DNA of 64,000 nt from Pseudomonadota bacterium (GTDB lineage: Bacteria; Desulfobacterota; Desulfobacteria; Desulfobacterales; JAHIVH01), in assembly GCA_018816735.1 (NCBI GenBank), contig JAHIVH010000061.1, positions 372,001-436,000 of the forward strand. Reading direction: 5' to 3'. Below the pieces are notes generated by a model. That model saw only the letters and a list, made by a program, of their open reading frames with translations. It was not told the DNA's origin and searched no databases. The position numbers and the translations under genes were made by a program. Of this stretch, positions 9,605 to 46,657 are shown in pieces (position 1 is the stretch's first letter; each line of letters opens with the position of its first letter).

Positions 9605-10168
9605 TTATTTCTTTTTCCTGACTATCCCGGAGATTCCAATAATGCCAAGACCAAAGAGGAGCATGGTTGCGGGTTCTGGAACAGGAGAACTTGATGATTC
9701 ATTAATCACCATGTTATCAATACTCGGCCAAAATCCGTTATAATGGGGTGAACTACCAGGAGAATAGAATTTTATCATTGAAATATCATTTTTCTCAACA
9801 CTCACTGTCAACCAATTGTTCCATGAGGAATAATTGCTCAAATCAACAGTTTGAAACCAAACAGAGTTGCTATTCATATCAAAGGCTTCAATATCTATCT
9901 GTCCAAGATACCCGCCCCCATAATTTTCCCAGGGCATGCCATTCATCTGGAAACTATTAACGTATGCGCCGTTCAGATCCATTATTGAATCATCATCATA
10001 ATATTGTTCACAGTAAATATGGCCGCCACCCTGACCATTCCAGGTCATGGAGCCGCCTAATGACACCCCCAGGTTGTTGCTGTCGTCAAAATCAAGTGTG
10101 GTGGCGCCTGCCAGCCCAACCCAAATGACCAATAAAAAACTTGCACATAACAAACCGATTTTTTTCAT
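9605..10168 (-). CDS. PEP-CTERM sorting-domain protein
   Basis: 187-residue exported protein. The N-terminal signal peptide starts MKKIGLLCASFLLV and ends near GLAGA. The mature part is rich in Ser, Asn, Gly and Trp, as usual for this class. The C-terminus SSPVPEPATMLLFGLG followed by a hydrophobic stretch and RKKK is a complete PEP-CTERM signal, the tag cut by an exosortase/archaeosortase-type protease. The start at 10168 follows AAAGGAGAG; an earlier ATG is unsupported. No exosortase gene is in the window. Proteins with this tag are usually surface or exopolysaccharide-linked, so a link to the polysaccharide genes after 54 kb is possible but unproven. Confidence 0.88.
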   Translation of the reverse strand: MKKIGLLCASFLLVIWVGLAGATTLDFDDSNNLGVSLGGSMTWNGQGGGHIYCEQYYDDDSIMDLNGAYVNSFQMNGMPWENYGGGYLGQIDIEAFDMNSNSVWFQTVDLSNYSSWNNWLTVSVEKNDISMIKFYSPGSSPHYNGFWPSIDNMVINESSSSPVPEPATMLLFGLGIIGISGIVRKKK

Positions 10169-10434
10169 AAACTCTCCTTTTAAAAAATTCATAACTACAC
10201 ATTCAAACAACCGACAAAGCCATAAAATTACAGGTCTATTATAGCAATAACCGTACCATGACATCAATCCACCTTTAAATCATGGATTGAGCAAGCTTAT
10301 AAAAAAATGAAATCCCTAACCGTTCAATCGCTGAGAAATTATTATCTTACAAATAATTACATTTTATTCCATATAATCGGTAATAATTTTATCATTCCTT
10401 CAAATCCGATAACTTTATCCTTAAAAAAAGAAAA

Positions 10435-16478: not shown

Positions 16479-16595
16479 TCGCGCTGTCACGCGGATGGCT
16501 TTAGAAAAATTTAAGTCCCCCCAATGGTATTGGCCTGAATTTTGCTTTTTTATTCAGTTGCGATACGAACGAAACCTCTATGCAGGAGAAAAGAT

Positions 16596-17849
16596 ATGAC
16601 AGAACATACAAGATATAATTATAAAATTCTCGCAAAAAGCCTTGAGTTGCCTTGTGGAAAGACCATCAAAAACCGGTTTATGAAATCAGCCATGTCGGAA
16701 AACCTGGGAACGGTTGACAACCGGATGACCCCTTATATCCCCAGGCTATATGAAACATTTGCCGAGGGAGGCACCGGACTTGTGGTCACAGGAAATGTGA
16801 TGATTGACCAACGCGCACTTGGTGAGGCCAGAAACGTGGTCGTTGAAGATGAAAGGGATTTACCGCTCCTTCAGGAATGGGCAAACGTTGGCACAAAAAA
16901 CAATACGCACCTGTGGGTTCAGTTGAATCATCCGGGAAAACAGATTCCTTCCTTTCTGGCAAAGGAACCGGTAGCACCCTCTGCCGTGCCTCTTGGCGGC
17001 AATCTGGAAAAAGCCTTTAACACACCCCGGGAACTGTTACCGGAAGAAATCGAAGACATTATTCTGCGATTTGCCCGGTCTGCTGAAATCGTTAAAAAAG
17101 CCGGCTTCACAGGTGTTCAGATTCATGGCGCCCATGGATATCTGGTCAGTGAATTTCTGTCCCCCCATCACAACAGAAGGAATGACGATTGGGGAGGGAC
17201 GCCTGAAAAACGTATGAAGTTTGCCGTTGAAGTGTATCGTGCCATCAGAGAGCGTGTGGGAAACGACTTCCCGGTTGGCATTAAACTCAATTCCGCCGAT
17301 TTCCAGCGGGGTGGTTTTTCAAATGACGAATCCCTGGACGTTATGGAAACACTTTCCGGAGAAGGGATGGATTTAATTGAAATATCCGGAGGAAACTATG
17401 AAAAGCCTGCCATGACAGGGGCTTATGTCAGAGAAAGTACACGTGAACGGGAAGCGTATTTTCTTGAGTTTGCCGAAAAGGTCAGACAAAAAATCAATAC
17501 GCCCTTGGTGGTTACAGGCGGGTTCCGAACCGGCTCTGGCATGATCAACGCCGTGGAAAGCGGTGCCACAGATATGATAGGGCTTGCCCGCCCACTGGCG
17601 GTTGACCCGTATCTGCCTTCAAAAATTTTAGCAGGAGAAGACTATACAAGCCCGGTCCACCCCCTATCAAGTGGTTTCAAGGTGATCGATACATTTTCCA
17701 TGCTTGAAGTGTCCTGGTACGCCCAGCAGCTTTTCAGAATGTCCCGAGGGAATCGGCCTGATCCGGATCAGTCTGTATGGACGTCCATTCTAAAAACGTT
17801 CTTCAATAATGGCTACCATGCATTTCAAAAACAGCGGGCCAAACAGTGA
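16596..17849 (+). CDS. NADH:flavin oxidoreductase, Old Yellow Enzyme family
   Basis: 417-residue FMN-binding TIM-barrel protein. Typical segments are KNRFMKSAMSEN, the HPGKQ motif (LNHPGKQIPS), the active-site GVQIHGAHGYLVSEFLSP with HHNRRNDDWGG, and VTGGFRTGSGM at the phosphate-binding end. It should reduce an activated double bond or a related electrophile with NAD(P)H. The length fits single-domain OYE proteins; the longer 2,4-dienoyl-CoA reductase type with an iron-sulfur domain is excluded. The start at 16596 follows AGGAGAAAAGAT. A TIGR01777-type dehydrogenase gene follows after 13 bases, so the two are co-transcribed. Substrate is unknown. Confidence 0.88.
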   Translation: MTEHTRYNYKILAKSLELPCGKTIKNRFMKSAMSENLGTVDNRMTPYIPRLYETFAEGGTGLVVTGNVMIDQRALGEARNVVVEDERDLPLLQEWANVGTKNNTHLWVQLNHPGKQIPSFLAKEPVAPSAVPLGGNLEKAFNTPRELLPEEIEDIILRFARSAEIVKKAGFTGVQIHGAHGYLVSEFLSPHHNRRNDDWGGTPEKRMKFAVEVYRAIRERVGNDFPVGIKLNSADFQRGGFSNDESLDVMETLSGEGMDLIEISGGNYEKPAMTGAYVRESTREREAYFLEFAEKVRQKINTPLVVTGGFRTGSGMINAVESGATDMIGLARPLAVDPYLPSKILAGEDYTSPVHPLSSGFKVIDTFSMLEVSWYAQQLFRMSRGNRPDPDQSVWTSILKTFFNNGYHAFQKQRAKQ

Positions 17850-20095: not shown

Positions 20096-22780
20096 TCACA
20101 GACCATTGAGGCGCACTTCCCCGGTTTCGCCATCCATGCAGATGACACTGCCGGTTTTAATAAGCTGTGTGGCGTTTTCAACACCTACGATGGTTGGGAT
20201 GCCAAGCTCTCTTCCAATGATTGCCGTATGAGAAAGAATGCTTCCCTTTTCAACAATAAGTCCGGCTGCTGAAATCATCAGAAAAATCCAGCCCGGATCC
20301 GTCATTTCCGATACAAGGATTTTCCCTTCAATGTTTTCAACGGTTTTCGGGTCGTTCACAATAACCGCTTCTGCAGTGACCGTTCCTGTGCTGCAAGCTG
20401 TTCCCTTGATCATGCCTGGCTGATCTGCACCTCCCATCTTCTGTTTGATGTCCTGGGGAATAACGTTTTCATAAACCGTACCTTTGAACATCAAACGGTT
20501 CAACGGACGCCTTTTCTGAAATCGCTCATGGGCTTTTTTTCTCTCGGCAACAATCCATTTTAAAGATGAATTTACGGATGTTCCGTAAATAAAGGATAGA
20601 ACTTCATCTACGGTCAGGTAGTGTATATCTCTTTTATCATCTATAATATCATGATGACTGAAATTCACACCAATCTGATTAAAAATGGTTCTAACAATAC
20701 CAAAGGCACGTGCCCTGTCGATTCGTGAACTCTCCCTGTATTTCAAAGAAATTCTTGCCTGACTGATGAGAAAAGAAAACACCATTCGCCTGGCAGGTTT
20801 TCGATCAAGCACTTTTAACAGTTTTTCTTCTGCTGACGAGCGTATTTCATCTTCTTTTTTCATCATATCAGAGGCATTAATCATTGCCGGAACATAGGAG
20901 AGTACGGTTTTTAATAGCAGCACCGGTGAATCCTTGAATACAATCGTTTCAAGTTTCAGCTCCTCAAGAGAGCGTTCACCATATTTTTCCATATGTTGGT
21001 TAAACTGGCTTGAAAACGGACAGGGTTCGCCACTTGCAAGAAAAACGGCCAGCTCTTTTTCACCATGCGTACTTATGGAAATAGTTTTTAATGTATCAAA
21101 TATTTCGTCATGTGCTCTTAAATATTCGGCCATGCTGACGATCGATCGGACGGGTTCTACACTCTCCATGCCTTTTTCACTGCAGAGAAGTGCGTTGAAA
21201 AGCCGATCCGGTTCCTCTGATGTCAATTTTTTCAGAAACCATTTTGAAAGACTTACAAAGATGACGGCATAGAAATCAAAGAAAAGGGTTATTTCCCAGC
21301 CATACATCAATTTTGAAAAAAAATTATTATGCTGGGTCGCCAGCTCATGGTTGGAGAGGAGCGAATGATTTTTCTTGTAAAATTCCCGGTAAAGGGCGTT
21401 AAATCGTTTTTTAAACCCCATCATCATCCATCTGAGCGACAGAAAATAAAAAAGAACCTTACCGAAAATTTTAAGGAATGACGGTATATCTTTCAGAAAA
21501 CGGATCTTCTTTTTTTCTGTATGATGATTTTTTCTCTCCGATACACCGGCCATTTCCTCCCAGGACCTGGCAAACCGGTTGCCAAAAGGCAGCATGTAAA
21601 AAATCTGGTACCAGTTTGAAATTACGTAATAGACTCTGCCCTCCACATACCCGACCATGTTCTTAAAAATGGATTGATGGGCAAATACTTTTTTACGGGA
21701 TACGCCCATTTTAATGACGACATTTCTGAAGATCGTTTCATAGCAGGATTTTACAAATGAAAACGTCAGCGGCATGGTGATGCCCGGATAACTTTCAACA
21801 ATATTGCTGTTATCAAAAATACTCAACGGCCCCTGGGGAATGGTCGTGATGGGCCGGGTCTGGGTGATATGAAACTGACCGCTCTCGTCCATGGCCCATT
21901 CAATATCCTGATAGTGATCATAAAGGGCTTCGATATCGCGACCGATGACGATCAGCGTTTTTACCTGATCCGAATTTAAAACCGGCGCGTATCTGTCACA
22001 CTCATCCAGCCTGACGCTGACCGTTCCTTTATCAGATAGGGTGTCCCGGACAACCTTCCAGGTTTTTTCCAGATGGATTGTTGATGTTTGCTTGCCTGTG
22101 GTTTTATTCACAATATAGGTATCGGTTTCCACACGATCAGAAACGATGCCTTCGCCAAGACCATATCCTGCGACAATCACGGCTTCATTCAATGATCCGG
22201 TGGGATTGGCCGTGAACATCACGCCTGCGACTCTGCTGTCTACCATCTTCTGAACGACCACTGCCACACGTGTCGACAAAGGATTTTCTTCTTTCAGACG
22301 CAGATATGTTAAAATACGCGGATTAAAGGCAGATGCCCAGCAAGCCTTTACATGCTCAAGCACATCTTCTGCAGGAATATAAAGATAGGTATCCAGAATT
22401 CCTGCAAAGGAGTGGTCACCGGCATCTTCTCCAACCGCTGATGACCTTACGGCAAAAAAGGAGGCATTCAAATCCCTGAACCGGTCATTAAAATCCGCCA
22501 GGTCTTTTTCCTGAAATTCGATTGAGAGAATGATATCTTTAATGTCATGAAAGGCGTTTTCAAGGCTTTCCGCAGATTGATAGTCTATGTCCTTCAAAAT
22601 GGTCTCTATCATCGCCTGTCTGGATTCCAGGCATTTTTTAAAAAAATATGTATTTACACAAAACCATTCGGGTACGGGAATCTGATTCCTTGAAAGTTTT
22701 GCAAGGTTATAGGCTTTTCCGCCAATGATATCCTCTCTCAAGATATCGTCTTTTGCTGAAACAATGGTTCTGATATTCAT
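20096..22780 (-). CDS. Rifampin-phosphotransferase-like dikinase, copy 1
   Basis: 894 residues with the three-part layout of Rph-type dikinases. The N-terminal ATP-grasp (PPDK_N) domain has GGKAYNLAKL, FFAVRSSAVGEDAG, GVMFTANPTGS and TQTRPITTI. A divergent helical middle region (about 330-800) follows. The C-terminal swivelling His domain has GSILSHTAIIGRELG with phosphorylatable His851. The PEP-binding TIM barrel of true PEP synthase is absent, so ATP is the probable donor and the middle region binds the acceptor. The acceptor is unknown; it is not close to the rifampin-binding sequence as far as I can judge. It is the last gene of a minus operon with GNAT-like, UbiA-like and ICMT-like genes, which suggests a lipid or isoprenoid alcohol as acceptor (inference). 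Confidence 0.82.
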   Translation of the reverse strand: MNIRTIVSAKDDILREDIIGGKAYNLAKLSRNQIPVPEWFCVNTYFFKKCLESRQAMIETILKDIDYQSAESLENAFHDIKDIILSIEFQEKDLADFNDRFRDLNASFFAVRSSAVGEDAGDHSFAGILDTYLYIPAEDVLEHVKACWASAFNPRILTYLRLKEENPLSTRVAVVVQKMVDSRVAGVMFTANPTGSLNEAVIVAGYGLGEGIVSDRVETDTYIVNKTTGKQTSTIHLEKTWKVVRDTLSDKGTVSVRLDECDRYAPVLNSDQVKTLIVIGRDIEALYDHYQDIEWAMDESGQFHITQTRPITTIPQGPLSIFDNSNIVESYPGITMPLTFSFVKSCYETIFRNVVIKMGVSRKKVFAHQSIFKNMVGYVEGRVYYVISNWYQIFYMLPFGNRFARSWEEMAGVSERKNHHTEKKKIRFLKDIPSFLKIFGKVLFYFLSLRWMMMGFKKRFNALYREFYKKNHSLLSNHELATQHNNFFSKLMYGWEITLFFDFYAVIFVSLSKWFLKKLTSEEPDRLFNALLCSEKGMESVEPVRSIVSMAEYLRAHDEIFDTLKTISISTHGEKELAVFLASGEPCPFSSQFNQHMEKYGERSLEELKLETIVFKDSPVLLLKTVLSYVPAMINASDMMKKEDEIRSSAEEKLLKVLDRKPARRMVFSFLISQARISLKYRESSRIDRARAFGIVRTIFNQIGVNFSHHDIIDDKRDIHYLTVDEVLSFIYGTSVNSSLKWIVAERKKAHERFQKRRPLNRLMFKGTVYENVIPQDIKQKMGGADQPGMIKGTACSTGTVTAEAVIVNDPKTVENIEGKILVSEMTDPGWIFLMISAAGLIVEKGSILSHTAIIGRELGIPTIVGVENATQLIKTGSVICMDGETGEVRLNGL

Positions 22781-22815
22781 CTGCTTTTCATTCTCGTTTT
22801 TTTATGGGTGTTATA

Positions 22816-23349
22816 TTATTCTTTAAAATAGGTACGGAAGGCGTTTTCCTCATCCTTGATGGCAAAATATATAAAAATAACGAACACCGAAAATATTCCC
22901 ATCATCAAAATACCTGGAACAGCGACAAGCACGCCGGCCATCTGCATCATATTTGCATAATAGATCGGATGATCCATATACCGGTAGGGGCCGGTTTTCA
23001 CCCTTTCCTCAGGCAAATACCCCTTGTTGCATGGTGAAAAATTAACGCCCAGGGTTTTCAGACTGGCATAAAGAACCCACACGCCTGCCATCCCCATTAT
23101 GGCGCCCGTTAAAAACTGCGGGATGGAAGGTGTGCCATCTCCCTTTTGACAGGCAAATGAAACAAGATGAACCATCACACCCAAATAAAGAAAATACTTC
23201 GCTTTTTCAAATAACCGGGTGGGGAAAGATAATGGATACGTCTCCTTCCTCTCGTTTTCTGTATCATTAAATTTAATGTGATGTCTTTTATAAATGACGA
23301 TATTGGCAACAATCATCAACATGAAAAACAAAACGGTAATGAAACCCAT
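22816..23349 (-). CDS. Isoprenylcysteine methyltransferase-like (ICMT/PEMT) membrane protein
   Basis: 177 residues with about five membrane segments. The C-terminal signature GPYRYMDHPIYYANM is the S-adenosylmethionine-binding motif of the ICMT/PEMT/NnrU-like membrane methyltransferases. Relatives methylate prenyl-cysteine, phospholipid head groups or small hydrophobic acids. The start ATG directly follows the stop of the UbiA-like gene (TGA-ATG), so the two are translationally coupled. Context suggests methylation of a membrane lipid. Substrate is unknown. Confidence 0.8.
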   Translation of the reverse strand: MGFITVLFFMLMIVANIVIYKRHHIKFNDTENERKETYPLSFPTRLFEKAKYFLYLGVMVHLVSFACQKGDGTPSIPQFLTGAIMGMAGVWVLYASLKTLGVNFSPCNKGYLPEERVKTGPYRYMDHPIYYANMMQMAGVLVAVPGILMMGIFSVFVIFIYFAIKDEENAFRTYFKE

Positions 23350-24255
23350 TCAGACCCCCCTTAAAAGCGCATAAACAAGTGCACCTGCCTGATAGAGAAT
23401 GATGTAGCTTTCGACAGATTTTTTTACGATATTGGTTTCTTTAACCGGCTTCAGAATGAATCGCAAAATAAGAAGAGAAACCGATGCCCCCAGTATAAGG
23501 TTGTAGTATAAAAACACACCTGAAAAATGGTATGCATTGCAGGTCATCCACCATAAACAGGTTGAGCATAAAATGGCCAGCAAGGGCACAAAAGCCGCCT
23601 TTTTGGCCCCCCAGCGCTTTGAATACGTCAGATAGTCTGTTTCTTCTTCCGGCGCCCTGATCTTCCTGCCATATTCCCATGCAAGGATAGGTGCCCAGTA
23701 TAGCATGCATAATGGTAATGCCAAAGACACATGCATGGGTTCACCAGATACTTCCAGATATACCGTATAGATATAAAAATTGAGCAGCGGCACAAGAGGC
23801 GTATGGGTGACAGTTACCAGCCACAACGTGTTTGAAACTTTTTCAGGAAACAGCCACCATTGCCATGATAAGACCAGAAAGATGAAATAGATAAAAAGTC
23901 CCTGGATGGCCATGCCCCTGCCAAGGTTCAATAAAAGGATGGCTATCATACCGAAGATTGCCATGATTTTAACGTCCGAATATCTAACAGCACCGGTTAC
24001 GAGCGGCCGATTGGGGAAGACAGCTGCATCGACCCCCTCATCTTTTAATTCATCAAAAAACCGTGGTAACAGCATACACAGGAAAAAGGTCAGGAAACCA
24101 AACCACGCACTTGAAAAATATTCAATTTTGCCAAGGCTTATCACCTGAACCATGAAAAAAAAACTCGTAAAAAAAAGAACAGCCGCAACACCATTCACAT
24201 GAAGCGGAAACATGGCCTTAAAATAAATTCGCACTCTACCGAAAAATTCTTTCAT
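23350..24255 (-). CDS. UbiA-family prenyltransferase-like membrane protein
   Basis: 301 residues with about eight or nine membrane helices. The first Asp-rich site is RFFDELKDEGVD followed by NRPLVTGAV, the classic UbiA prenyl-diphosphate site. The second acidic region is EYGRKIRAPEEETDY in place of the canonical DxxxD, so that site is altered but still acidic. The family transfers a prenyl group to an aromatic or glycerol acceptor. A GGAGATT site sets the start. It is coupled to the ICMT-like gene, follows the GNAT-like gene, and shares the locus with CDP-alcohol and CarS-like enzymes, which makes a lipid acceptor plausible. Confidence 0.82.
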   Translation of the reverse strand: MKEFFGRVRIYFKAMFPLHVNGVAAVLFFTSFFFMVQVISLGKIEYFSSAWFGFLTFFLCMLLPRFFDELKDEGVDAAVFPNRPLVTGAVRYSDVKIMAIFGMIAILLLNLGRGMAIQGLFIYFIFLVLSWQWWLFPEKVSNTLWLVTVTHTPLVPLLNFYIYTVYLEVSGEPMHVSLALPLCMLYWAPILAWEYGRKIRAPEEETDYLTYSKRWGAKKAAFVPLLAILCSTCLWWMTCNAYHFSGVFLYYNLILGASVSLLILRFILKPVKETNIVKKSVESYIILYQAGALVYALLRGV

Positions 24256-24337
24256 AATCTCCTCTCAGCAATATCACCTCGCCGATATCTGAACACGCCA
24301 GGTGATATAAATTTATAATGTTGTTTTAAAATATTCA

Positions 24338-25429
24338 TCAAACCAGCGGTCTTTTAAAAGTGATATACCGTTGGGTAATTTCGGACATGCCGGAAAGTTT
24401 CCTGATATAATCATGTTTTATATTGGATCGTCTCCAGGCCAGAGGGTGGCCATATGTTCGCATGGAGTAGTCGGAAATACCCATTACAATCGCCTTGAAC
24501 AAGGCTCCTCCTCTGAAATTCCTGTCAACCGCAACTGTTTTGGTCGCAAAAACCGGTTGATTCTTTTCATTCCCTTCCGGCTTTTTCTTTTGATTATCCG
24601 GGTTGCAAACCCGATCGATGAAATTGTGATAGTTCGAAAGAAACCCGACCAGTTCATCATCCCTGTAATACAGCCACAGAGAGTTTGGATCGGTCATATA
24701 TGAAAGAAGGTTTCGGGTCTGGAATTCAAAGACATCATAGTCAACCGGTGCCAGGCGGTGATCCTCAGCCGAAAAATTCGTGCAGATCAGGTTATATACA
24801 GGTTTCATAAAATCATCGATTGCAATATCGTTTAAATTAACTATTACAATGCCCTGTTTTTCGATTTCCTCTCTGACCGCAGGGTAAATTTTCATGAGTG
24901 TTTCATGATGATCGGGTTTGATGACACCGGAAAATGACGACTCCCCTTTTCCCCAGCCTGCGTTGAAAAAAAGATCGGGATAGAAGGACTGATGATAAGG
25001 GTCCCCAATCCATCGCTCAGATGTGATGCTTTGGGTTAAAAACTGCCAGTTATGAAACGCATTCAGATCTATAGGCCCAAAAATTTCACGGCTCCCCTGT
25101 TCTCTGGATACTTTAAATGCTTCTTCCATGATTTGGTTAAATACATAAGGATTATTTTCACATTCAAAAAATCCGAAAATACCAAATGAATAGGCGTCAC
25201 AACGGCCGACAAGAACTCGTGCGATATCTCTTCCCTTGTTTTCGGCAAGGAGGCATTCGAATGTGTAATCCGGCCTTTTTGCATAATACTCCAGGATTAA
25301 ACGATGCGTATCGTTTTCGGCATAGTAGTAATAGTTATCTTTGTATATGGCATCCCTTACCGATAAAAAACGGTCAAGAAGTTCTTTTGAATGCTGACCG
25401 ACCTGGAAACGATGAATATGTGTTTCCAT
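24338..25429 (-). CDS. YghO-like GNAT-fold protein
   Basis: 363 residues. The first half has GRCDAYSFGIFGFFE, then REIFGPIDLNAFHNWQF, a pattern of the YghO-like group of GNAT-fold proteins. The second half carries LWLYYRDDELVGFLSN and KTVAVDRNFRGGALFKA, the latter like an acyl-CoA-binding strand-loop-helix. It probably transfers an acyl group to an amine, but the reaction of this group is not established. It is the first gene of the GNAT-UbiA-ICMT-dikinase operon, with a good AGGAGAATT site, and is divergent from the RND/PssA operon. Confidence 0.7.
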   Translation of the reverse strand: METHIHRFQVGQHSKELLDRFLSVRDAIYKDNYYYYAENDTHRLILEYYAKRPDYTFECLLAENKGRDIARVLVGRCDAYSFGIFGFFECENNPYVFNQIMEEAFKVSREQGSREIFGPIDLNAFHNWQFLTQSITSERWIGDPYHQSFYPDLFFNAGWGKGESSFSGVIKPDHHETLMKIYPAVREEIEKQGIVIVNLNDIAIDDFMKPVYNLICTNFSAEDHRLAPVDYDVFEFQTRNLLSYMTDPNSLWLYYRDDELVGFLSNYHNFIDRVCNPDNQKKKPEGNEKNQPVFATKTVAVDRNFRGGALFKAIVMGISDYSMRTYGHPLAWRRSNIKHDYIRKLSGMSEITQRYITFKRPLV

Positions 25430-25608
25430 TTTTAATTCTCCTGTTATGTCGAAAATATCAATTTCTCTTGATTATAAAAAAATGTTGTGCTCTCTATAGC
25501 AGTAAAACTTTTATTTTTTCAATTCTTTTTTTTCAAACCTGTTTGATCTTTAAAAATATAAATGTTATCGAAAAACGTCTTCTAACCTTTTAGCAAACAA
25601 GGTGTCAT

Positions 25609-27879
25609 ATGCCGGAATACTTCTTCAGATCAATTATTAAATATCGGGTACTGATTCTTTCAATAAGCGCCATTCTACTGGCAGGAGCCCTGTATCTCGG
25701 AAAAGATGTCAAGCCGGATTTCAGTGTGGAGCAATTTTTTCCGGCTTGGGATCCCGCTAAAATAACTTACCAGCGCTACAAGCAATATTTCCCAAAAGAA
25801 GATACAGGTATTATCCTTTTCTGGGAAGAAAAAGACCCTTTAAATACCGATACATTTCACGACATGGAAAAAGCGGCCGCCATCTTCGAACAACTTGATC
25901 TTGAAGATGTCTCCTGGATCGGCGATATCGAAATCCCTGAAACAGTGATGCTTGATGGCGAAGAAGCCTTATCCATTCATCAGTTGATCAATCGGGAAAC
26001 CCTGTCTGACGATTACCTGAAAAAAAGGATAGACAAATATAAAAATGATCCGATCCTTTCCGGGTATCTCTGGAACAGTGATCTCTCCATACTTGCCATT
26101 TACGGTTATCTCCCCCAGGAACTGAATACCGATGAATCCCGGAGAGAAATTGAAGGCAAGCTCACCAACTTTCTTGAACCGTTTTCTAAACCCGGACGAA
26201 AACTCGTCTTGAACGGAATACCCATTGTCAGGGCTCGCGCCATCAAAACCCTTGCCATTGACCAGTCTGTCCTTCTTGGCATCGGCTTTATATTAATTTT
26301 TGCTATCCTCTATTATTTTTTCCGTCACGCGCTGCAGGTGTTCCTGTGTATTTTTTCAATTCTTCCGGCATACATTATTGTCATCGCCATCATGGGCATA
26401 TGTCATAAACCGATATCTGTATTAACCAGTTTCATGCCACTTATCATTGTCGTCATAGGCATTAGCGATACGATTCATATCCTCGTTCACTACCGAAAAA
26501 TACGTGCGACAGGGCTTGAAAACCATGATGCCATCGCTCAATCCTTTTCCAGACTTTCAACCGCCTGCTTTTTCACCTCCCTTACAACGGCCGTAGGATA
26601 CTTCAGCCTGATCAGCACAAAGATATCGATTGTTGTTGATTTCGCGGTGTTTACCGGAACCGGTGTTCTTTTATCCTATGTGGCTGCAATCGTTTATTTG
26701 CCTATTTTCCTGAGCTATTATAAAAAAAGCCAGTTCAATGATAAGGGTCAAAATACGCTCTGGATGAATTCATTTCTGAATCATGCGGATCATCAAACCC
26801 GGTTAAGACCCAAAATGATTCTTTTTATATCAAGCATCATCCTCATGGGCTCGCTGTATTATGCCACCCGAATTGATGTTAACGCGTTCATGATAGACGA
26901 CATGAAAAAAAGCCATCCCCTGATGAAAGACTACAAATGGGTGGAAAACCACAATTTCGGCATCTTTCAGCTGAACCTTTTTTTAGAAGGCCATTCAGAC
27001 AAACCGCTCCACAGCATCGACAATCTTCAATGGCAGGAGACATTTATCAATTTTGTAAACGATGATGCTCTGGTCTTAAGGATCATCTCCATGAATCACC
27101 TTTTCAAACAGATACGAAACGAATTCATAAACATTAATGATACCCCGGACAAGTTGCCTTCAACAGATCAGGAAGCATCAGATTTTCTGTTTATCGCTGA
27201 TTCCAACTTTTTCAAAGACGTCTACATTGAAGAAGAAAATGTCGGACAGATCATCGTTTTTGTAAAAGATACGGGCAGCAAACACATGGTTCCCTTCATC
27301 AAAAAAATTGATGCCTTTCTCAAAGCATCTCCACCACCGGTGGGTTCGGTCATCTCAACCGGAACAACCCGGATGGCTCAGACCACTTTTGAAAACATCA
27401 TATCCGGTTTTGGTTCCAGCCTTATTCTTGCTATTGTAATCATCTTTTTCATGATCACAGGGTTATTCAGGTCTTTTACATACGGATTTATCGCTCTTGT
27501 AATCAATATCGCACCGTTAATGTTCCTGTTAGGTTTTGTTGCTTTTATGAATTATGATATCAAGCCCTCCACAGTTTTAATTTTTTCAATTGCTTTTGGC
27601 ATTGCCGTAGATGATACCATTCACTATCTGGGTATCTTCAGGCAAAACCAGAAAGACGGTGTTCCACGCAACGTCAATATTTCAAAAACACTGAAAACAT
27701 CCGGTAAGGCCATGGTCATGACAACCGTTATTATCGGATGCGGTTTTTCGGTGTTAATGGTATCTTCATTTGAAATTCTTTTTCTTTTAGGCCTTCTTTC
27801 CGGACTGGCGCTATTATCGGCAGTGGTTGCCGATATTTATGCGCTACCGTCAATTCTCTCACTCATGAAAGGAGAATAA
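25609..27879 (+). CDS. RND/MMPL-superfamily exporter in the lipid locus
   Basis: 756-residue RND protein with the two-repeat topology: an N-terminal membrane segment, a periplasmic loop, a helix bundle (about 220-375), a second segment near 400, a second loop, and a final bundle (about 600-745). The signature GIAVDDTIHYLGIFR is in the second bundle and GISDTIHILVHYR in the first. It probably moves a lipid across or out of the inner membrane. Two bases separate it from the CDP-alcohol transferase gene, so the two form a tight operon. It is divergent from the GNAT-UbiA operon. It lacks the EF-hand-like loop of the RND protein at 4468. Confidence 0.87.
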   Translation: MPEYFFRSIIKYRVLILSISAILLAGALYLGKDVKPDFSVEQFFPAWDPAKITYQRYKQYFPKEDTGIILFWEEKDPLNTDTFHDMEKAAAIFEQLDLEDVSWIGDIEIPETVMLDGEEALSIHQLINRETLSDDYLKKRIDKYKNDPILSGYLWNSDLSILAIYGYLPQELNTDESRREIEGKLTNFLEPFSKPGRKLVLNGIPIVRARAIKTLAIDQSVLLGIGFILIFAILYYFFRHALQVFLCIFSILPAYIIVIAIMGICHKPISVLTSFMPLIIVVIGISDTIHILVHYRKIRATGLENHDAIAQSFSRLSTACFFTSLTTAVGYFSLISTKISIVVDFAVFTGTGVLLSYVAAIVYLPIFLSYYKKSQFNDKGQNTLWMNSFLNHADHQTRLRPKMILFISSIILMGSLYYATRIDVNAFMIDDMKKSHPLMKDYKWVENHNFGIFQLNLFLEGHSDKPLHSIDNLQWQETFINFVNDDALVLRIISMNHLFKQIRNEFININDTPDKLPSTDQEASDFLFIADSNFFKDVYIEEENVGQIIVFVKDTGSKHMVPFIKKIDAFLKASPPPVGSVISTGTTRMAQTTFENIISGFGSSLILAIVIIFFMITGLFRSFTYGFIALVINIAPLMFLLGFVAFMNYDIKPSTVLIFSIAFGIAVDDTIHYLGIFRQNQKDGVPRNVNISKTLKTSGKAMVMTTVIIGCGFSVLMVSSFEILFLLGLLSGLALLSAVVADIYALPSILSLMKGE

Positions 27880-27881
27880 AG

Positions 27882-28481
27882 ATGTTCCTGGGTATCTATA
27901 ATCCTCCGGCAGCCATTTCATTCCTTGGGATCATGCTTTCTTCAACAGCCATCTATCTTTCATTTAACAATCACTTCAACTATGCCGTCATTTGCTTTAT
28001 CTACGCGGGTATCTGCGATCTCTTTGATGGTCTTATCGCCCGAAAATTCGATCGTACGGAAGAAGAAAAACTGTTTGGCGTACAAATTGACTCTATCATC
28101 GATATGGCAAGCTTTGGTATTACGCCCTGTATGCTTATCCTGCATTCAGGGTTTGACACAAAACCGGATCTCTTCCTGATTCTGTTTTATATATGCGCTG
28201 CAGCCATGAGGCTTGCATACTTCAATGTTCACGGGACAAAAGAAATAAAAGGAACAGCCTTTTATACAGGTCTTCCGGTTACCTTCTCTGCCCTCATTTT
28301 CCCCAGTGTTTTTATATTGCATGACATGGCCTGTGAAAATTTATATCGATTTATTGTTCGATCCGTGTTTTTTATCGTAGCTGTTTTGTTTGTTCTTAAA
28401 ATTTCAATACCAAAACCCAAAGGCATTTTCTATTTTGTTTTTCTTCTTCTTGCCATTTTTTATACGGTTTACTGGCTCTGA
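27882..28481 (+). CDS. CDP-alcohol phosphatidyltransferase, PssA-like
   Basis: 199-residue membrane enzyme. The CDP-alcohol motif is complete: DGLIAR, then 11 residues, then GVQIDSIID, continuing into MASFGITPCML as in phosphatidylserine and archaetidylserine synthases. About six membrane helices. It swaps CMP on a CDP-activated lipid for an alcohol such as serine. The R-to-G spacing is longer than the 8 residues common in this superfamily, as in PssA-type members. Start after AAAGGAGAATAAAG. It follows the RND gene directly and converges with the CarS-like gene, whose product should make a CDP-lipid. Serine as the alcohol is a guess. Confidence 0.83.
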   Translation: MFLGIYNPPAAISFLGIMLSSTAIYLSFNNHFNYAVICFIYAGICDLFDGLIARKFDRTEEEKLFGVQIDSIIDMASFGITPCMLILHSGFDTKPDLFLILFYICAAAMRLAYFNVHGTKEIKGTAFYTGLPVTFSALIFPSVFILHDMACENLYRFIVRSVFFIVAVLFVLKISIPKPKGIFYFVFLLLAIFYTVYWL

Positions 28482-28501
28482 TCCATTTTTTCGATCAAAC
28501 C

Positions 28502-29098
28502 CTAACCTGCCTGTTTTTTCAGTCCTACCAGATAAAGCAGGATATTTATAATATAGTGAAACAGGGTCGCAAGTATAATGATGGCGATGGCATCTTTAAA
28601 TGCCGGCACATAAAACACCATCATAAAAATGACACATCCGATAACCGAATCTGTTTGATCTATCACTGTGAATACTTTGCCGATTATGCCACTACCCTGT
28701 TTACCCGGACTGATATCAATCCTTCTTTTAATATAACTGTTCGGCAACTCAAAAAAAACATATCCAAATCCCCAGATGGCTCCCCAAATAAACGAAAATA
28801 CCGGGTTCGGAAATTCACCATAAGGAATCAGACTCAACGTCCTTGCCCACTCAACATGACGATACAACACATCAAACATGAACATGAACAAGGCAGTGAG
28901 AACTATCATCCCGAAAAATCCCTTCCAGGTTTTATGATCGCCCCAGAGCCGTTTCCCATCTGAAAGAATTTTTCCCCCGTCCATGGGTATTTTCAAACTG
29001 TCAAGAACAGGCAGCTTCACAAATACCATATTAAAAATACCAGCGAGAATTACGGGAAGCATAAGATAGCATAACTTCCCCATATGACCCCATTCCAT
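28502..29098 (-). CDS. CDP-archaeol synthase-like (CarS/DUF46) protein
   Basis: 198-residue membrane protein with the CarS-family marks: DGGKILSDGKRLWGDHKTWKG near the N-terminus, then ELPNSYIKRRIDISPG and VIDQTDSVIG. In archaea CarS activates a phosphorylated ether lipid with CTP to give CDP-archaeol. Bacterial homologues with the ELPNS-IKRR motif exist; their substrates are mostly untested. ATG 29098 is chosen because AGGAG lies five bases away; a GTG at 29104 overlaps that site. It is the last gene of the operon with the aminotransferase-reductase fusion and the second dikinase. Confidence 0.82.
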   Translation of the reverse strand: MEWGHMGKLCYLMLPVILAGIFNMVFVKLPVLDSLKIPMDGGKILSDGKRLWGDHKTWKGFFGMIVLTALFMFMFDVLYRHVEWARTLSLIPYGEFPNPVFSFIWGAIWGFGYVFFELPNSYIKRRIDISPGKQGSGIIGKVFTVIDQTDSVIGCVIFMMVFYVPAFKDAIAIIILATLFHYIINILLYLVGLKKQAG

Positions 29099-29132
29099 TT
29101 TCACTCCTTTTTCTTAAAAATCATGATGTGTT

Positions 29133-31742
29133 TCAACCCATAAGTGTCAGGATGCCATTATCCCCATCTATGGAAATTTCCTGACCATCGGTTAAGAGAG
29201 TTGTAATATTTTCAACCGCAAGTATTGCTGGAATACCATACTCCCGGGAAATGACCGCAGCATGCGAGAGAAGACCGCCGGATTCCGTTATCACACCTGA
29301 AAGAAGGCTGAATTTGGGTGTCCACCCCGGATCAGTAAATTTGGTAACCAGGATATCTCCCTTGGAAAGCCTTGATGCGTCGTTGATATCCCTGATCACC
29401 TTGATTTTGCCCATAACAAAACCCGAACTGCATGCGATACCGGTATATTTCTTTTTACCCACATCAATGGAGACATTCACCTTAGCATAACTTCTGCCTA
29501 TTTCATTGGGATTGTTATAATTCCTGAATGAATGATAATATACTTTATTCAAATCTATCATTTTTCTTGCCTGCTCAACCGAAATTTTCTGTTTGCTGAT
29601 TGCAATAATATCAGACACCGGCAGGAAAAATATATCGTCTTCCGTATCGATAATGGACAAATTTTTGAAATGCCTGGCCATGAACAGTGTAAATCGTCTG
29701 ACATAATAATAAAACTGCGTCGACAGATCTCTCAACTCTTCCCGCCACCAGAGAATTTTCCTCAGATCCAGAAGCGCATGTTCCATGTTTTTTTGTTTAT
29801 AAAAAGGCACGAGAGAAAGTAGCTTTTTCTTTTCCAAAAGAAACATTTCAAATTGTTTTCTGTTCAAGGCTCTGGGCTCAAAATGATCGTCCAGGTCGAG
29901 GTTATGTTTCAGACTTTCCATTACAAAACTCGGATCTTCTCCATACCTGGGTACGGTAATGTCAAGCTCCCTTGTGGAGTGAAATTTGTTTTTTTCGATA
30001 TAGAAAGCAACATTTTTCATATAATGATCCTCATATCCGGAACGCCATAATGAGACCAGGTCATCTACAGATGTTTCCTTCCAGAATGAAACCGATGCCG
30101 CATCCATTTTTATCGTTTCCCTCAGATCCCAAAGCTCGTACATGGGAATCAGATGGGACAAATTGGTCAGACCGGAAATCAGATTGGGGTAAATCAACCG
30201 GGATTCTATTTTTTTTAGCCGTTCCTTAAACAGGCTGGCAGTGTTGGATGATGCAAAAATCGTGTTAAAATACGTGGCCTCACTTCGGTAATACTCCTCC
30301 ATAATGAACGTTTCATAGAATTTGAAAAATTCGTCCTGTTTCATGGTTTCAGGATCGATCTGATCAATTTCAAGAAGCTTCTTATGTTGCTGTTCCCGGA
30401 ATATCGGCCACTCTTTTTTCAGTTTTTTAAAACTTTTGGAAAGCTCAAGGAGAACCTTTATTCCGGTTAATAAGGTTTTGACATTGGTCCTGCTGGTAAA
30501 ACCTTCCCCCTTATACGCCACTCTTATTCCCAATGACTCGTCAAAATTTTTTTCTATAAAACCGGGCAGCCGCTTCAGTCCTTCTTTAACGCTGGAAAGA
30601 TTCCAGTAGGGACGGCCGTAGAACATGTCCCCCCAGATAACCCCTTTATCACTTTCAATCAGGTAATGCTGTTTCAGATACGAAGGCATTACCTTTTCCC
30701 AGACAAGATCATATAAAGACCACATAAAGGGGCTGCATACCCCTGAGGAAACCCCGCCATCCCTGAAATCGGCGGTCGTCCATTCATTATTAATGCCACC
30801 ATAACTGATGGTTGTAATGGGCCTGCTCTGCAGGATATAAAATTGATTGTCGTGTTTGGCCCACTCAATATCCACGGGGAATCCGTATTCAGCCTGAATT
30901 TTCAAAGCGATATCAGAAAGTTGTTTCACTTCTTCACGGCTTAATACAGTCTCATGCCTTCTTGATTCGTCATGGGTAATGTGTTTTACAAACGGAGGAT
31001 CGTCCATTGCCAGAACAGCAATCTTTTTGTCGCCGATCACCCGTTTCTTTTCCACCCCATTATACCAGTCATACCCATATTGATCCGGTGTCACTTCACC
31101 ACCCACCAGGGCTTCTCCCAGGCCGAAACAGGCTTCGATAATCATTTGCCGATCATAACCTTTAAGAGGGTCCACCGTAAAAAGAACACCACTTTTTTCA
31201 GCAGGAATCATCTTCTGGATGATAACGGCAATCTTCATATCACTGAAATCAATATTCCGGTTGATGCAATAATTCAGGACCCGCTCATTAAAAAGAGATG
31301 CCCAGCATTCTTTTACGCTATTATAAATACCTTTTCCCGGTTTAACATTCAAAATGGTTGTGTATTGGCCTGCAAACGAGGCATTATCGAGATCCTCCTT
31401 TGTCCCGCTGCTTCGAACCGCAAAATGGAAATCCGGATTTGCCTTAAGCAGGTTTTTGATGCTTTGTTTTAATTTTTCAGGCAACTCCCCTTTTGCAATC
31501 CTTTCACGAAGACATTCTGCTGTCTCCCAAACGCGTTCCGGGTTTGTCCTCATCTCTTCCCGAAGCTTTTGAACAATCTTGTCCATGTCATGCAATGAAA
31601 TAAACGCATCAAATCCCTCGGTCGAAACCACACCACCTTCAGGTACCGGAAGCCCCCAGGCGGTCATGGCAACAAGAGACGCCGCCTTTTTGCCAATTAA
31701 TGATATTTGTGCATCTGTCGTTTGATTAAATAGGTAAAACAC
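29133..31742 (-). CDS. Rifampin-phosphotransferase-like dikinase, copy 2
   Basis: 869 residues, the same length as typical rifampin phosphotransferases. The ATP-grasp part has IGKKAASLVAM, FAVRSSGTKEDLDNASFAGQ, SGVLFTVDPLKG and LQSRPITTI. A helical middle region follows (about 310-780), different from copy 1. The C-terminal His domain has GGLLSHAAVISREYG with His827. No PEP-binding domain. GTG start after GAGGTCAAG. It lies between the aminotransferase-reductase fusion and the CarS-like gene with gaps of 32 and 34 bases. A lipid alcohol, phosphorylated before CDP activation, is the acceptor that context suggests. Rifampin resistance is not supported by context. Confidence 0.82.
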   Translation of the reverse strand: MFYLFNQTTDAQISLIGKKAASLVAMTAWGLPVPEGGVVSTEGFDAFISLHDMDKIVQKLREEMRTNPERVWETAECLRERIAKGELPEKLKQSIKNLLKANPDFHFAVRSSGTKEDLDNASFAGQYTTILNVKPGKGIYNSVKECWASLFNERVLNYCINRNIDFSDMKIAVIIQKMIPAEKSGVLFTVDPLKGYDRQMIIEACFGLGEALVGGEVTPDQYGYDWYNGVEKKRVIGDKKIAVLAMDDPPFVKHITHDESRRHETVLSREEVKQLSDIALKIQAEYGFPVDIEWAKHDNQFYILQSRPITTISYGGINNEWTTADFRDGGVSSGVCSPFMWSLYDLVWEKVMPSYLKQHYLIESDKGVIWGDMFYGRPYWNLSSVKEGLKRLPGFIEKNFDESLGIRVAYKGEGFTSRTNVKTLLTGIKVLLELSKSFKKLKKEWPIFREQQHKKLLEIDQIDPETMKQDEFFKFYETFIMEEYYRSEATYFNTIFASSNTASLFKERLKKIESRLIYPNLISGLTNLSHLIPMYELWDLRETIKMDAASVSFWKETSVDDLVSLWRSGYEDHYMKNVAFYIEKNKFHSTRELDITVPRYGEDPSFVMESLKHNLDLDDHFEPRALNRKQFEMFLLEKKKLLSLVPFYKQKNMEHALLDLRKILWWREELRDLSTQFYYYVRRFTLFMARHFKNLSIIDTEDDIFFLPVSDIIAISKQKISVEQARKMIDLNKVYYHSFRNYNNPNEIGRSYAKVNVSIDVGKKKYTGIACSSGFVMGKIKVIRDINDASRLSKGDILVTKFTDPGWTPKFSLLSGVITESGGLLSHAAVISREYGIPAILAVENITTLLTDGQEISIDGDNGILTLMG

Positions 31743-31774
31743 CTTGACCTCATTCTCTTTATAAAAAATTATTT

Positions 31775-34663
31775 TTAATAGCTTCTGCCTGTTTTGAACT
31801 GACCCAGCGCAAATCCATGAATCTTTGCGATTTCAAGTATTTTTTTCACTTTCAGTTTGCTGATTCTCCCGTAGCTGTAATGCTCTTTGATGCCTGTCAG
31901 GCCCAGCAGAATCGTTTCTGACATACAGGCAAATGCATGGCCCGTTTCAAGGGGAATGCCCGCAATATTAAAATCTGAATTAAAGGGCAGTTTAACCACA
32001 CCGCCTTTGATCAGAAATACATTTTTTTTCTGTTCGGAAACAGATTCATCCACATCCGCAGGGACCGCAATATCGTTTATCACGATCGGCCAGTCATTAA
32101 GATGTTCAGGAAAAATAACCGGTTCTGGCGTACTGCTCGCGCTGATGATGAGATCTGCCATTTTCAAATACGACAATTCGGTTGAAAACAGCACAGGGCT
32201 TCTGTCTTTCATTTCCTTTGTCAGTTCATCCAGAAGCCAGTTTCCTGTATTGCCAATCGTTTCATATTTTCTGAGCACTGTTTTCAGGGTTGCCGTATCA
32301 TAAATTGCTTTTGCAACCCCCTTGAGCGAATTCTCGTCAGCACCATTTGCTTTCATCAAGCGAATATCATTAAACGCATTGATATAAATATCGCTCGCAA
32401 TATCTCTTGCTCTCGAAAGGCTTTTTCCTTTCCGGATAATTAAAATAATTTTGGGAACCGTTTCAGCCATCATTTCAAGATAAGTGCTGCAGATATTTCC
32501 GGTTGCACCGACGCCAGCCATGCAGGCACGAGAAAGATCGATATCAATCATCTCAGAAGCCTTGTAAAGCGCCTCAACGCCCATGGCAACGGTATAAGAA
32601 TTTCCTGAAGTGACAGCAATAGAATCGGTGATCACACTTTGACAATTACGTGTGATAATGGAAGTATAGCCGCCGAACCCCGCAACCTGACACCCCAGAT
32701 CTATGGCGAGATTTACTGCCTCCTTAACCGTCTTTTGAATTGGCTCGAGGTCACCGGAACGTGCATGCTTTTCAATGATTTGAGGGGTTATTTGGAGTCC
32801 GATAAAATTCAGAGCAACTTTCTCACCGGTCAGGGAGTTGACAACCACCTGATCATAGACCTGCGGGGGTACGCACGTGTAGGTTTTTTCAACAAACCGG
32901 TCTGCCTGTTCTTTGTTAAACAACATCAGACTTTCATCAACCAGTTTCAAATGTTCCGAGTCAATCAGATGGCCCAGAAAAGCCACTTTTCGAAGATTTT
33001 CAGGTGCCTTGCCAATTTTCTGTTCCTTTCTGAAATCCCGGATATCACTTTTTCTGTCAGGCTGTTCTTCCCCCACAATGTATTTAATGAGTTCATAAAA
33101 ATTCTGTTTATACAAAATCTCGCAAAGTTGGCTTACGGCATACAAAAACGTTTCGCACTGGTCAAAAGAAATATAGAAAGAGGGTTCAATACGAATCGTC
33201 ACATGGCTGGAAAGTGTGGGGGCTACGCGGATTCTGTGTTCGTGAAACAGATATCCGGCGATTAATGGGCCAAGACGTTTTCCCAGATAAACGGACCGGA
33301 TAAAATTTGAACCTGAGTCTTCCTGGCTCATGAATTCAATACCAAGCATCAATCCTTCACCCCGGACGTCCTTGATCACACCGGGAAATTGATTTTTGAT
33401 CCGGTCCAACCCGGTTTTAATCTGTTCGCCTCTTTTTTTGGCATTTTCCATCAAGGACGGATCTGCTTCAAGAAGGTTTAGTGCGGCCAATGCGATGGCT
33501 GAGCTGTGGTCGTCTTCTGCAAAGGTGGATGTATGAAGGGTGCCAAACTCGTTTTCATAAAGATCGTCCCGGACAAGAAGTGCAGAAATCTTAGACAATC
33601 CGCCTCCCAGACTTTTTGACAACAGATAATAATCAGCCACAACGCCTGATTGCTCGGAAAACAGAAACGTTCCGGTGCGTCCCATGCCACACTGAATCTC
33701 ATCAAAGATCAGGGGAAAATCATTTTCAGAGGCAATCCTTCTTGCATTCTCCAGAAACACACCGGACAAGGGATGTATCCCCCCTTCTCCTTGAAGGGGT
33801 TCAAGAAAGAGGGCGCCGATATTCACATATTTTTTTTCAACCAGAATCAATTCATTGTTTGTGTTAATTTCCGGGAAAAAATAGCTTAAGGCAGCTTGCC
33901 TAACCGTGTTTTCAAGGCTATTGGTATCTCCGGGTTCAATGAACTTGACTTTAATACCTATTCGCTGAAACGGTTTTCTATATGTTTCATTGTGTGTCAA
34001 CTGTAAAGAACCGGATGTTTTACCATGGAACGAACGGTTCAGGCACAAAAAAACCGGCTCTTTTTTGAGCATGCGATAGCATTGACTCTGTATCCAGGAT
34101 AACAGATCCGGCAGGTTGCTGACCGGAATGGTCCCAACATTTTCATTCACCGCCTGCGTAAAAGACTTGGGAACAGAAAATTCACCATCCCGGTATTTCT
34201 GTTTCAAAAGGACCCCCCACGACTTCATGAATGACATAATGTCTTCAATTTTTTTTGCATGGGACAGCTCGGCATGTTTTATTGCTGCTTCAACGGCCTC
34301 CGTACCAGTATTTCCGAAAGTTACGACAAAATTTTTCCCTGTGCTTTTCCGCATGAATTGATTCAGTTTCTGGCTCAAACGGGCTGAACCTGCCCTTACG
34401 CTTCCTTGAGCACTGAAAGGAATTTCCGTTTTAAAATTTTCAATCGCGACATTAACCAAATCCGGGTGGTTATGTCCAAACAGCAAAGAGCCAAAACCGC
34501 CTAAAAAGTCGATGACGCCAATTTCGCTCCTGTTTTCGTCTGTGTAATACATCATATCGCCTCTGGCCCGGTGAAATACGGTATCGAGCCTTATCGATTC
34601 CAGCAGTTTCGCCATATCAGGGCGACAATACTTTTTATACAATTCGGATATTTCTGAAGTCAT
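31775..34663 (-). CDS. Fusion of class III aminotransferase and acyl-ACP reductase-like domain
   Basis: 962 residues. The first half (to about residue 480) is a PLP class III aminotransferase: GNTGTEAVEAAIKHAE, IFDEIQCGMGRTG, and the PLP lysine in LLSKSLGGG. The second half resembles the aldehyde-forming long-chain acyl-ACP reductase of cyanobacteria: FLGHLIDSEHL, CVPPQVYDQVVV, LGCQVAGFGGYTSII, VTSGNSYTVA, the nucleotide site GVGATGNIC, and a late Cys in GHAFACMSET that may be the thioester nucleophile. Together they could make a fatty aldehyde and then an amine. The ATG at 34663 has AGGAAAAGG; an ATG at 34708 lacks a site. First gene of an operon with a dikinase and a CarS-like gene. Chain length and true product are unknown. 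Confidence 0.8.
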   Translation of the reverse strand: MTSEISELYKKYCRPDMAKLLESIRLDTVFHRARGDMMYYTDENRSEIGVIDFLGGFGSLLFGHNHPDLVNVAIENFKTEIPFSAQGSVRAGSARLSQKLNQFMRKSTGKNFVVTFGNTGTEAVEAAIKHAELSHAKKIEDIMSFMKSWGVLLKQKYRDGEFSVPKSFTQAVNENVGTIPVSNLPDLLSWIQSQCYRMLKKEPVFLCLNRSFHGKTSGSLQLTHNETYRKPFQRIGIKVKFIEPGDTNSLENTVRQAALSYFFPEINTNNELILVEKKYVNIGALFLEPLQGEGGIHPLSGVFLENARRIASENDFPLIFDEIQCGMGRTGTFLFSEQSGVVADYYLLSKSLGGGLSKISALLVRDDLYENEFGTLHTSTFAEDDHSSAIALAALNLLEADPSLMENAKKRGEQIKTGLDRIKNQFPGVIKDVRGEGLMLGIEFMSQEDSGSNFIRSVYLGKRLGPLIAGYLFHEHRIRVAPTLSSHVTIRIEPSFYISFDQCETFLYAVSQLCEILYKQNFYELIKYIVGEEQPDRKSDIRDFRKEQKIGKAPENLRKVAFLGHLIDSEHLKLVDESLMLFNKEQADRFVEKTYTCVPPQVYDQVVVNSLTGEKVALNFIGLQITPQIIEKHARSGDLEPIQKTVKEAVNLAIDLGCQVAGFGGYTSIITRNCQSVITDSIAVTSGNSYTVAMGVEALYKASEMIDIDLSRACMAGVGATGNICSTYLEMMAETVPKIILIIRKGKSLSRARDIASDIYINAFNDIRLMKANGADENSLKGVAKAIYDTATLKTVLRKYETIGNTGNWLLDELTKEMKDRSPVLFSTELSYLKMADLIISASSTPEPVIFPEHLNDWPIVINDIAVPADVDESVSEQKKNVFLIKGGVVKLPFNSDFNIAGIPLETGHAFACMSETILLGLTGIKEHYSYGRISKLKVKKILEIAKIHGFALGQFKTGRSY

Positions 34664-34750
34664 TATAACCTTTTCCTCAATTGTTTCATATATTTCATCA
34701 GTTTTCATATACAGGACGCCATATATGAAACCATTTTAACTTTAGTGATT

Positions 34751-46623: not shown

Positions 46624-46657
46624 AGTTACATCCTCCCTTACATAAACGTTCAAGTCA

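Follow-up and report, generated by a model that had tools for sequence, protein, structure and literature searches.

Enzymatic conversion of fatty acids to fatty amines is known in the biosynthesis of pigments and alkaloids but not in the assembly of membrane lipids. In Pseudoalteromonas tunicata, the tambjamine YP1 tail pathway (PtTamA, PtTamH) obtains acyl-ACP by way of an adenylating enzyme and an acyl carrier protein (ACP), and PtTamH forms the amine from C12-ACP, taking the amino group from L-Glu (PMC9594044). The prodigiosin enzyme PigE has both PtTamH activities with its domains in the reverse order, and this bifunctional thioester reductase/transaminase is clustered with PigC, an enzyme of the phosphoenolpyruvate (PEP)-synthase-like superfamily (PMC8341465). 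Acyl-chain thioester reduction and transamination are also features of the koreenceine (PMC6498172) and streptoaminal/5-alkyl-tetrahydroquinoline clusters. Here we describe a locus in a 64,000-nucleotide stretch of DNA from a bacterium of the Desulfobacterales (the window; positions 372001-436000 of contig JAHIVH010000061.1, our C132, from a 6.5-Mb genome) in which a TamH-like fusion is encoded together with lipid head-group enzymes. With confidence a little above even, we read it as a dedicated route to a polar lipid whose chain derives from a fatty amine.

The locus consists of nine open reading frames (ORFs), all intact, which cover about 15 kb (20096-34708) in three tight operons with intra-operon gaps of 0-82 bp. 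Operon a (minus strand) codes for a GNAT-like protein, a UbiA-family protein, a PEMT/ICMT-type methyltransferase, and dikinase 1 (dik1). Operon b (plus strand) codes for an RND/MMPL transporter and a CDP-alcohol phosphatidyltransferase, and operon c (minus strand) for the fusion, dikinase 2 (dik2), and a CarS-like protein. A first-pass annotation, made from the sequence, had already recognized nine genes in three tight operons, with 34663 as the outer limit of the locus; that position is an internal Met of the fusion, whose ORF starts at 34708. Its family calls were upheld by Pfam and NCBIfam, and for the GNAT by the predicted fold, except that the protein called ICMT is closer to the phospholipid N-methyltransferases (PEMT). 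Unlike the tambjamine YP1 pathway, the window locus has no bipyrrole (MBC) genes and codes for CarS, a CDP-alcohol transferase, UbiA, GNAT, MMPL, and two Rph-like enzymes. In the open-access literature we found parts of this gene set but no published pathway with all of it.

The transaminase-reductase fusion

The first 530 residues of the fusion are a class III transaminase (Aminotran_3 in Pfam, 8.5e-64) with CrmG (5dds, 6e-76) and PigE (4ppm, 4.9e-61) as the top PDB matches. The last 400 residues are of the cyanobacterial acyl-ACP reductase (AAR) type (6jzu, 7.3e-20 in a PDB search). Lys365, the pyridoxal-phosphate lysine in an SKxLGGG motif, and Cys928, which aligns with the catalytic C294 of SeAAR, are both invariant across 15 homologues. 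The nucleotide-binding motif GATGNI is present, with Cys740 in place of the third glycine of GxxGxxG. Like PtTamH, the fusion has the transaminase first and the reductase second, and it shares the conserved Cys. Given this domain order, the intact catalytic residues, and the activity of PtTamH, strong homology predicts that the window fusion converts acyl-ACP to a fatty aldehyde and then a fatty amine. The amine-derived product that the first-pass annotation had suggested is well supported by this enzyme. In contrast to PigE, with its reversed domains, the fusion falls far under the NCBIfam PigE equivalog (335.5 bits; cut-off 850). A plain acetylornithine/putrescine aminotransferase was ruled out by the intact AAR domain with its Cys. 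Ordinary class III aminotransferases match the full-length fusion in every genome, making it unusable as a family marker; searches were therefore run with the reductase domain or a strict E-value.

In a tree of the fusions, the forms from Streptomyces and from G040, a genome of the same order as the window, make up one group (100/99) that is separate from the main Planctomycetota clade. The placement of the window form is not firm; by path it is nearest to the main Planctomycetota clade, with which it has the GATGNIC motif in common. The fusion of G040, which is the one genome of that order with a strong homologue, lies in a cluster (L038:8714-19788) with three ketosynthase-like genes, a short-chain dehydrogenase/reductase, and an MMPL transporter. 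This is a polyketide-type alkylamine cluster, and its fusion is related to that of Streptomyces nigrescens HEK616. G040 encodes none of the other genes and was ruled out as a carrier of the same pathway.

Distribution and linkage of the gene set

To determine how often these genes occur together, we surveyed 343 Planctomycetota genomes for the fusion and then, in the same set, with a CarS profile. The fusion is encoded in 16 genomes and CarS in 15, with nine encoding both where 0.70 would be expected (Fisher p=3e-10). Without the genomes that supplied the query or anchor, seven encode both against an expected 0.50 (p=3e-8). Orthologues of dik2 were taken at 500 bits or more to the dik2 profile, there being a clear gap from 527 to 397 bits; G820 is a partial match among these. 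They are present in 12 of the 16 fusion-bearing genomes and none of 43 fusion-negative ones (p=1.6e-9), and without the seed genomes in five of nine against none of the 43 (p=5e-5); as Planctomycetota genomes are related and often fragmentary, these p-values overstate independence and are upper limits on confidence.

The genes are also linked. In a Planctomycetota genome found by scanning named genomes for the fusion, 16.5 kb hold RND-BtaA / dik2 / ACP-fatty-acyl-AMP ligase (FAAL)-fusion-dik1-GNAT-UbiA (L065). A single operon in another relative reads fusion-dik2-CarS (L205). Elsewhere the set is divided within one genome: ACP-FAAL-fusion / dik2 / CDP-alcohol transferase-CarS (L198) with UbiA-dik1-GNAT (L268), or fusion-dik2 (L211) with CarS-CDP-alcohol transferase-phosphatidylserine (PS) decarboxylase-GNAT-dik1-UbiA (L239). 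A further genome has it in three parts, UbiA-C-domain-ACP-FAAL-fusion (L199), CarS-dik2-MMPL (L240), and dik1-GNAT-PS decarboxylase-CDP-alcohol transferase (L269). MMPL / dik2-CarS / CDP-alcohol transferase-PS decarboxylase is found in L237, and CarS adjoins dik2- or dik1-type genes in most Planctomycetota that have it. The fusion, dik2, dik1, GNAT, UbiA, CarS, the CDP-alcohol transferase, and the exporter thus recur jointly in relatives, which add an ACP and FAAL upstream and a PS decarboxylase downstream. The clustering of these genes is not accidental, since the same set travels together in unrelated Planctomycetota. The first-pass annotation had proposed one undescribed lipid pathway; tested on co-occurrence and linkage, the proposal was not refuted and is partly supported, as linkage or co-inheritance of the genes extends to another phylum and we found no described pathway with the set.

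A contig of the Bacteriovoracaceae has the fusion followed directly by dik2 (L067). Near this pair (L067:2634-15132) are genes for a PAPS-reductase-type protein, an EF-Tu-type GTPase, a sulfotransferase, and a class I/II aminotransferase, a setting that may indicate that this lineage makes a sulfated product. Within the phylum of the window, CarS has strong matches in three of 247 genomes, one of them the window's, and the other two (G124, G196) have no other pathway genes near CarS. At more than 50 bits to the fusion reductase domain, the window's own is alone in 395 genomes of its phylum. This near absence of the gene set fits horizontal acquisition.

Dikinases, head groups, and competing explanations

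Both dikinases have the order ATP-grasp, middle (substrate) domain, and C-terminal swivel His, placing them in the Rph-like swivel superfamily with LmRPH and HpeHI (PMC12167813), and the swivel His is invariant in both types. In Pfam, dik2 matches PPDK_N (2.1e-77) and PEP-utilizers (2.8e-24), as does dik1 (1.7e-73 and 1.6e-23). The closest PDB entry to dik2 is the Listeria rifampin phosphotransferase by sequence (5hv2, 4.9e-87) and 5hv1 by fold (1.5e-38); for dik1 it is LmRPH (5fbs, 2.4e-67). Unlike LmRPH and HpeHI, with which they share 25-30% identity, the window enzymes score under the Rph equivalog cut-off (323 and 376 bits; cut-off 999) and are invariably surrounded by lipid genes. The two fall into separate groups, each with its own orthologues. 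Those of dik2 adjoin the fusion in L065, L198, L205, L211, and L067, and those of dik1 are in L065 (34-35%), L239 (37-40%), and L236 (34%). PEP synthase and pyruvate phosphate dikinase were ruled out for both, as a C-terminal swivel domain is the wrong domain order, the one in PEP synthase having a PEP-binding TIM barrel after it; dik1 and dik2 score 282 and 352 bits against a PEP_synth cut-off of 739.75. Another PPDK_N/PEP-utilizers protein of the window (44137-46653, minus strand), with a 130-aa N-terminal extension and an internal His domain, is of a type unlike dik1 or dik2 and adjoins a sensor kinase gene (42554-44113).

TamQ is the PEP-synthase-like partner enzyme paired with TamH in the tambjamine pathway. 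The smallest unit to recur is the pair of the fusion and dik2, like TamH/TamQ and PigE/PigC. Moreover, dik2 is kept in BtaA genomes that need no phosphorylated lipid, and several loci have DAGK-type kinases. We therefore favor, by a modest preference over a kinase, dik2 as an ATP-dependent ligase joining the fatty amine to a carbonyl-bearing backbone. That both types persist in one BtaA genome suggests the dikinases build the lipid core. A second module is made up of dik1, UbiA, and GNAT, with GNAT orthologues adjoining dik1 in L065, L239, L264, L268, and L269 and UbiA adjoining dik1/GNAT in L065, L239, L267, and L268. The 363-aa GNAT-like protein has no Pfam match. Its AlphaFold model (pLDDT 79) resembles tandem GNAT structures throughout its length (best 2wpw, E 5.9e-16), so the predicted fold bears out two GNATs in one chain. 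As a marker in the window's class, GNAT finds only weak paralogues (20-30%). The UbiA protein has a conserved first Asp motif (DELKDxxxD) and a variant second one (RKxRxPxEExxYxTYSK).

The CarS-like protein scores 64.1 bits to PF01864 (gathering cut-off 22) and has the conserved blocks GxxKTxxG, ELPNSxxKRR, and DQxDS. The CDP-alcohol transferase meets PF01066 (57 bits); its top NCBIfam families are archaetidylserine synthase (82 bits, cut-off 240) and pssA (77 bits, cut-off 107), both below cut-off. Elsewhere the window genome encodes a CdsA of its own and four more CDP-alcohol transferases, making the CarS and transferase of the locus extra copies. As the transferase scores best to archaetidylserine and phosphatidylserine synthases and its relatives adjoin CarS or a PS decarboxylase, a serine/ethanolamine head group is likely. 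The PEMT-type protein (PF04191 8.4e-11 vs PF04140 ICMT 5e-7) could N-methylate the ethanolamine head. Nothing else of the pathway lies near the gene for the second PS decarboxylase of the genome (C17). The transporter (PF03176 6.6e-22, TIGR00921 8e-43) is encoded 3 bp upstream of the CDP-alcohol transferase, and its relatives are paired with BtaA (L065) or CarS (L235). An FMN-dependent oxidoreductase of the window (Oxidored_FMN, 16542-17849, plus strand) has a 44% identical homologue adjoining CarS and RND in the Planctomycetota genome G820 (L235:307-1452) and may be a further pathway member.

Two genomes without a CarS match, those with L065 and L263 (G770, G857), carry a BtaA-type DUF3419 gene. 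In L263 it adjoins dik2, the position of CarS in other relatives, and in L065 it directly follows RND, the position of the CDP-alcohol transferase in the window. With BtaA in corresponding positions in two relatives lacking a detectable CarS, the head-group module is, by gene content, swappable. A phospholipid-type head group gains support from CarS, the CDP-alcohol transferase, and the PS decarboxylase of relatives, with BtaA as the swap. The substrate of BtaA is diacylglycerol, and that of CarS/CdsA-type enzymes a phosphatidate-like lipid, so the core, and with it the polar product, is probably glycerolipid-like. The set resembles the bacterial PS/ethanolamine and betaine routes in combining a CDP-lipid, a serine transferase, a decarboxylase, and PEMT, or BtaA in two relatives. 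Unlike those routes, it exists alongside the CdsA and PssA/Psd that the genome already has, and acts on a core from an amine-forming fusion.

In the pathway we favor, acyl-ACP would come from primary fatty acid synthesis in the window organism and from the dedicated ACP and FAAL in relatives. The TamH-like fusion would reduce and transaminate it to a fatty amine, as PtTamH does. Using ATP, dik2, the steady partner of the fusion, would activate a backbone carbonyl or carboxyl and join the amine to it, as PigC/TamQ-type enzymes do. In most versions of the pathway, though not in all, further groups may be added by dik1, the tandem GNAT, and UbiA. CarS would then form a CDP-lipid to which the CDP-alcohol transferase attaches serine; these genes are present and their order of action is presumed. 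Ethanolamine or N-methylated heads would result from decarboxylation and, in the window, PEMT-type methylation, with a BtaA-type betaine head instead in some relatives, and the MMPL transporter would move the lipid outward. Every reaction beyond the amine is inferred, as are the sequence of the steps, the export, and the location in the membrane.

Besides the relatedness of the surveyed genomes, several points weigh against this pathway. Its product is a prediction from the gene content. The window locus has no ACP or FAAL, and G1084 and L067 have no dik1, UbiA, or GNAT near the fusion. The score of UbiA to PF01040 (33.4 bits, 3.8e-8) is just under the gathering cut-off of 34.2. Both dikinases are below all named NCBIfam equivalog cut-offs, including those of PigC/RedH (1300/1350 bits; dik1 341/328, dik2 359/341), and the family cannot decide between ligase and kinase. 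The known active Rph-like enzymes with solved structures, Rph and HpeHI, are hydroxyl kinases (PMC12167813).

The last point bears on the scheme of the first-pass annotation, in which the Rph-like enzymes of the same lipid pathway are lipid kinases that phosphorylate a lipid alcohol, CarS forms the CDP-lipid, and the transferase adds the head. The closest solved relative is a rifampin phosphotransferase, HpeHI has the same architecture, and a dik1-like gene adjoins CarS even in three fusion-negative genomes (L244, L245, and L246 of G1098, G793, and G916). This scheme is possible but doubtful, as dik2 is kept, next to BtaA, in the two genomes without CarS (those with L065 and L263), which have no need of a phosphomonoester; L205, L211, and L212 have a DAGK-type lipid kinase gene of their own beside the fusion or dik2; and one phosphorylation needs less than a dik1-like/dik2 pair. 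The dik1-like gene and CarS of the three fusion-negative loci, with an acyl-AMP ligase nearby in two of them, may mark a separate fusion-free lipid route.

The cluster could instead make a secreted small molecule, such as an alkyl-amine alkaloid or lipid-like antibiotic. The known relatives TamH and PigE act in tambjamine and prodigiosin synthesis, S. nigrescens HEK616 (L066), which makes streptoaminal, and G040 have the fusion outside this gene set, L199 includes a condensation-domain protein, other loci have sulfotransferases, and an exporter is present. We consider such a product unlikely: no bipyrrole genes or ketosynthases are among the window genes scanned, and CarS, the PssA-like transferase, PS decarboxylase, and BtaA are membrane-lipid head-group enzymes. 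Clusters of the koreenceine/streptoaminal type have a polyketide setting with ketosynthases, as in G040, and the ketosynthase/Streptomyces branch is split from the Planctomycetota fusions in the tree. An archaeal-type isoprenoid ether-lipid pathway, with UbiA as digeranylgeranylglyceryl-phosphate synthase, would account for the trio of UbiA, CarS, and an archaetidylserine-synthase-like transferase, the last two resembling the archaeal pair. It is very unlikely, as CarS scores 77.8 bits to the archaeal CDP-archaeol synthase equivalog PRK04032 (cut-off 148), the second UbiA motif is unusual, UbiA does not adjoin the fusion-dik2-CarS operon of L205, and the fusion is left unexplained. No glycerol-1-phosphate dehydrogenase, geranylgeranylglyceryl-phosphate synthase, or geranylgeranyl reductase was seen among the window genes scanned or in annotated relatives, the first two not having been searched genome-wide. 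Chance adjacency of unrelated operons would suit the three transcription units and the split of modules over contigs in several relatives, yet it is largely refuted, as identical gene combinations turn up in different phyla and their co-occurrence is strong, leaving it hardly credible.

Features of the window and implications for membrane lipids

Genes of the locus, with window coordinates
Feature	Position	Strand	Basis
Fusion, 977 aa: N-terminal class III transaminase and C-terminal AAR-type acyl-thioester reductase	31775..34708	-	PDB matches, conserved Lys/Cys
Dikinase 2 (dik2), 869 aa: ATP-grasp, middle domain, C-terminal swivel His; Rph/PigC-like layout	29133..31742	-	Pfam, PDB, fold
CarS-like CTP:lipid-phosphate cytidylyltransferase (predicted), 200 aa	28502..29104	-	PF01864
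CDP-alcohol phosphatidyltransferase, serine-transferase-like, 199 aa	27882..28481	+	PF01066
MMPL/RND (HAE3/HpnN-like) transporter, predicted lipid exporter, 756 aa	25609..27879	+	PF03176, TIGR00921
Tandem GNAT acyltransferase-like protein, 363 aa	24338..25429	-	AlphaFold model matched to PDB
UbiA-superfamily (prenyl)transferase, 301 aa	23350..24255	-	PF01040, motifs
PEMT/ICMT-type membrane methyltransferase, 177 aa	22816..23349	-	PF04191 over PF04140
Dikinase 1 (dik1), 894 aa: Rph-like layout, clade distinct from dik2	20096..22780	-	Pfam, PDB

The flanks hold no obvious lipid-head-group genes. On one side are a UvrD helicase, the FMN oxidoreductase, an epimerase, and a rubrerythrin, and on the other an alpha/beta hydrolase and PhaC. 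Farther out, the window encodes a second MMPL/RND transporter (4468-7125, plus strand) followed by two ORFs without a Pfam match (7174-8382, 8477-9259), and a PEP-CTERM sorting-signal protein (9605-10267, minus strand).

Taken together, the locus looks like a bacterial pathway, not described before, for a fatty-amine-based polar lipid. More tentatively, and short of an even chance, it may represent a new class of membrane lipid, with a core chain joined through nitrogen by a TamH-made amine and PigC/TamQ-like ligation, with interchangeable phospho-ethanolamine/methylated or betaine heads, and spread across phyla by horizontal transfer. If the pathway is as we read it, a conserved set, shared by two phyla or more, in which a fatty-amine enzyme is coupled to CDP- or betaine-type head machinery would be a new logic of lipid biosynthesis. 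It would give the very common, poorly assigned Rph-like "PEP synthase" proteins a defined role, and would open some of the polar lipids still unassigned in environmental lipidomes to genetic study. The gene set predicts precisely which genomes should hold the lipid.

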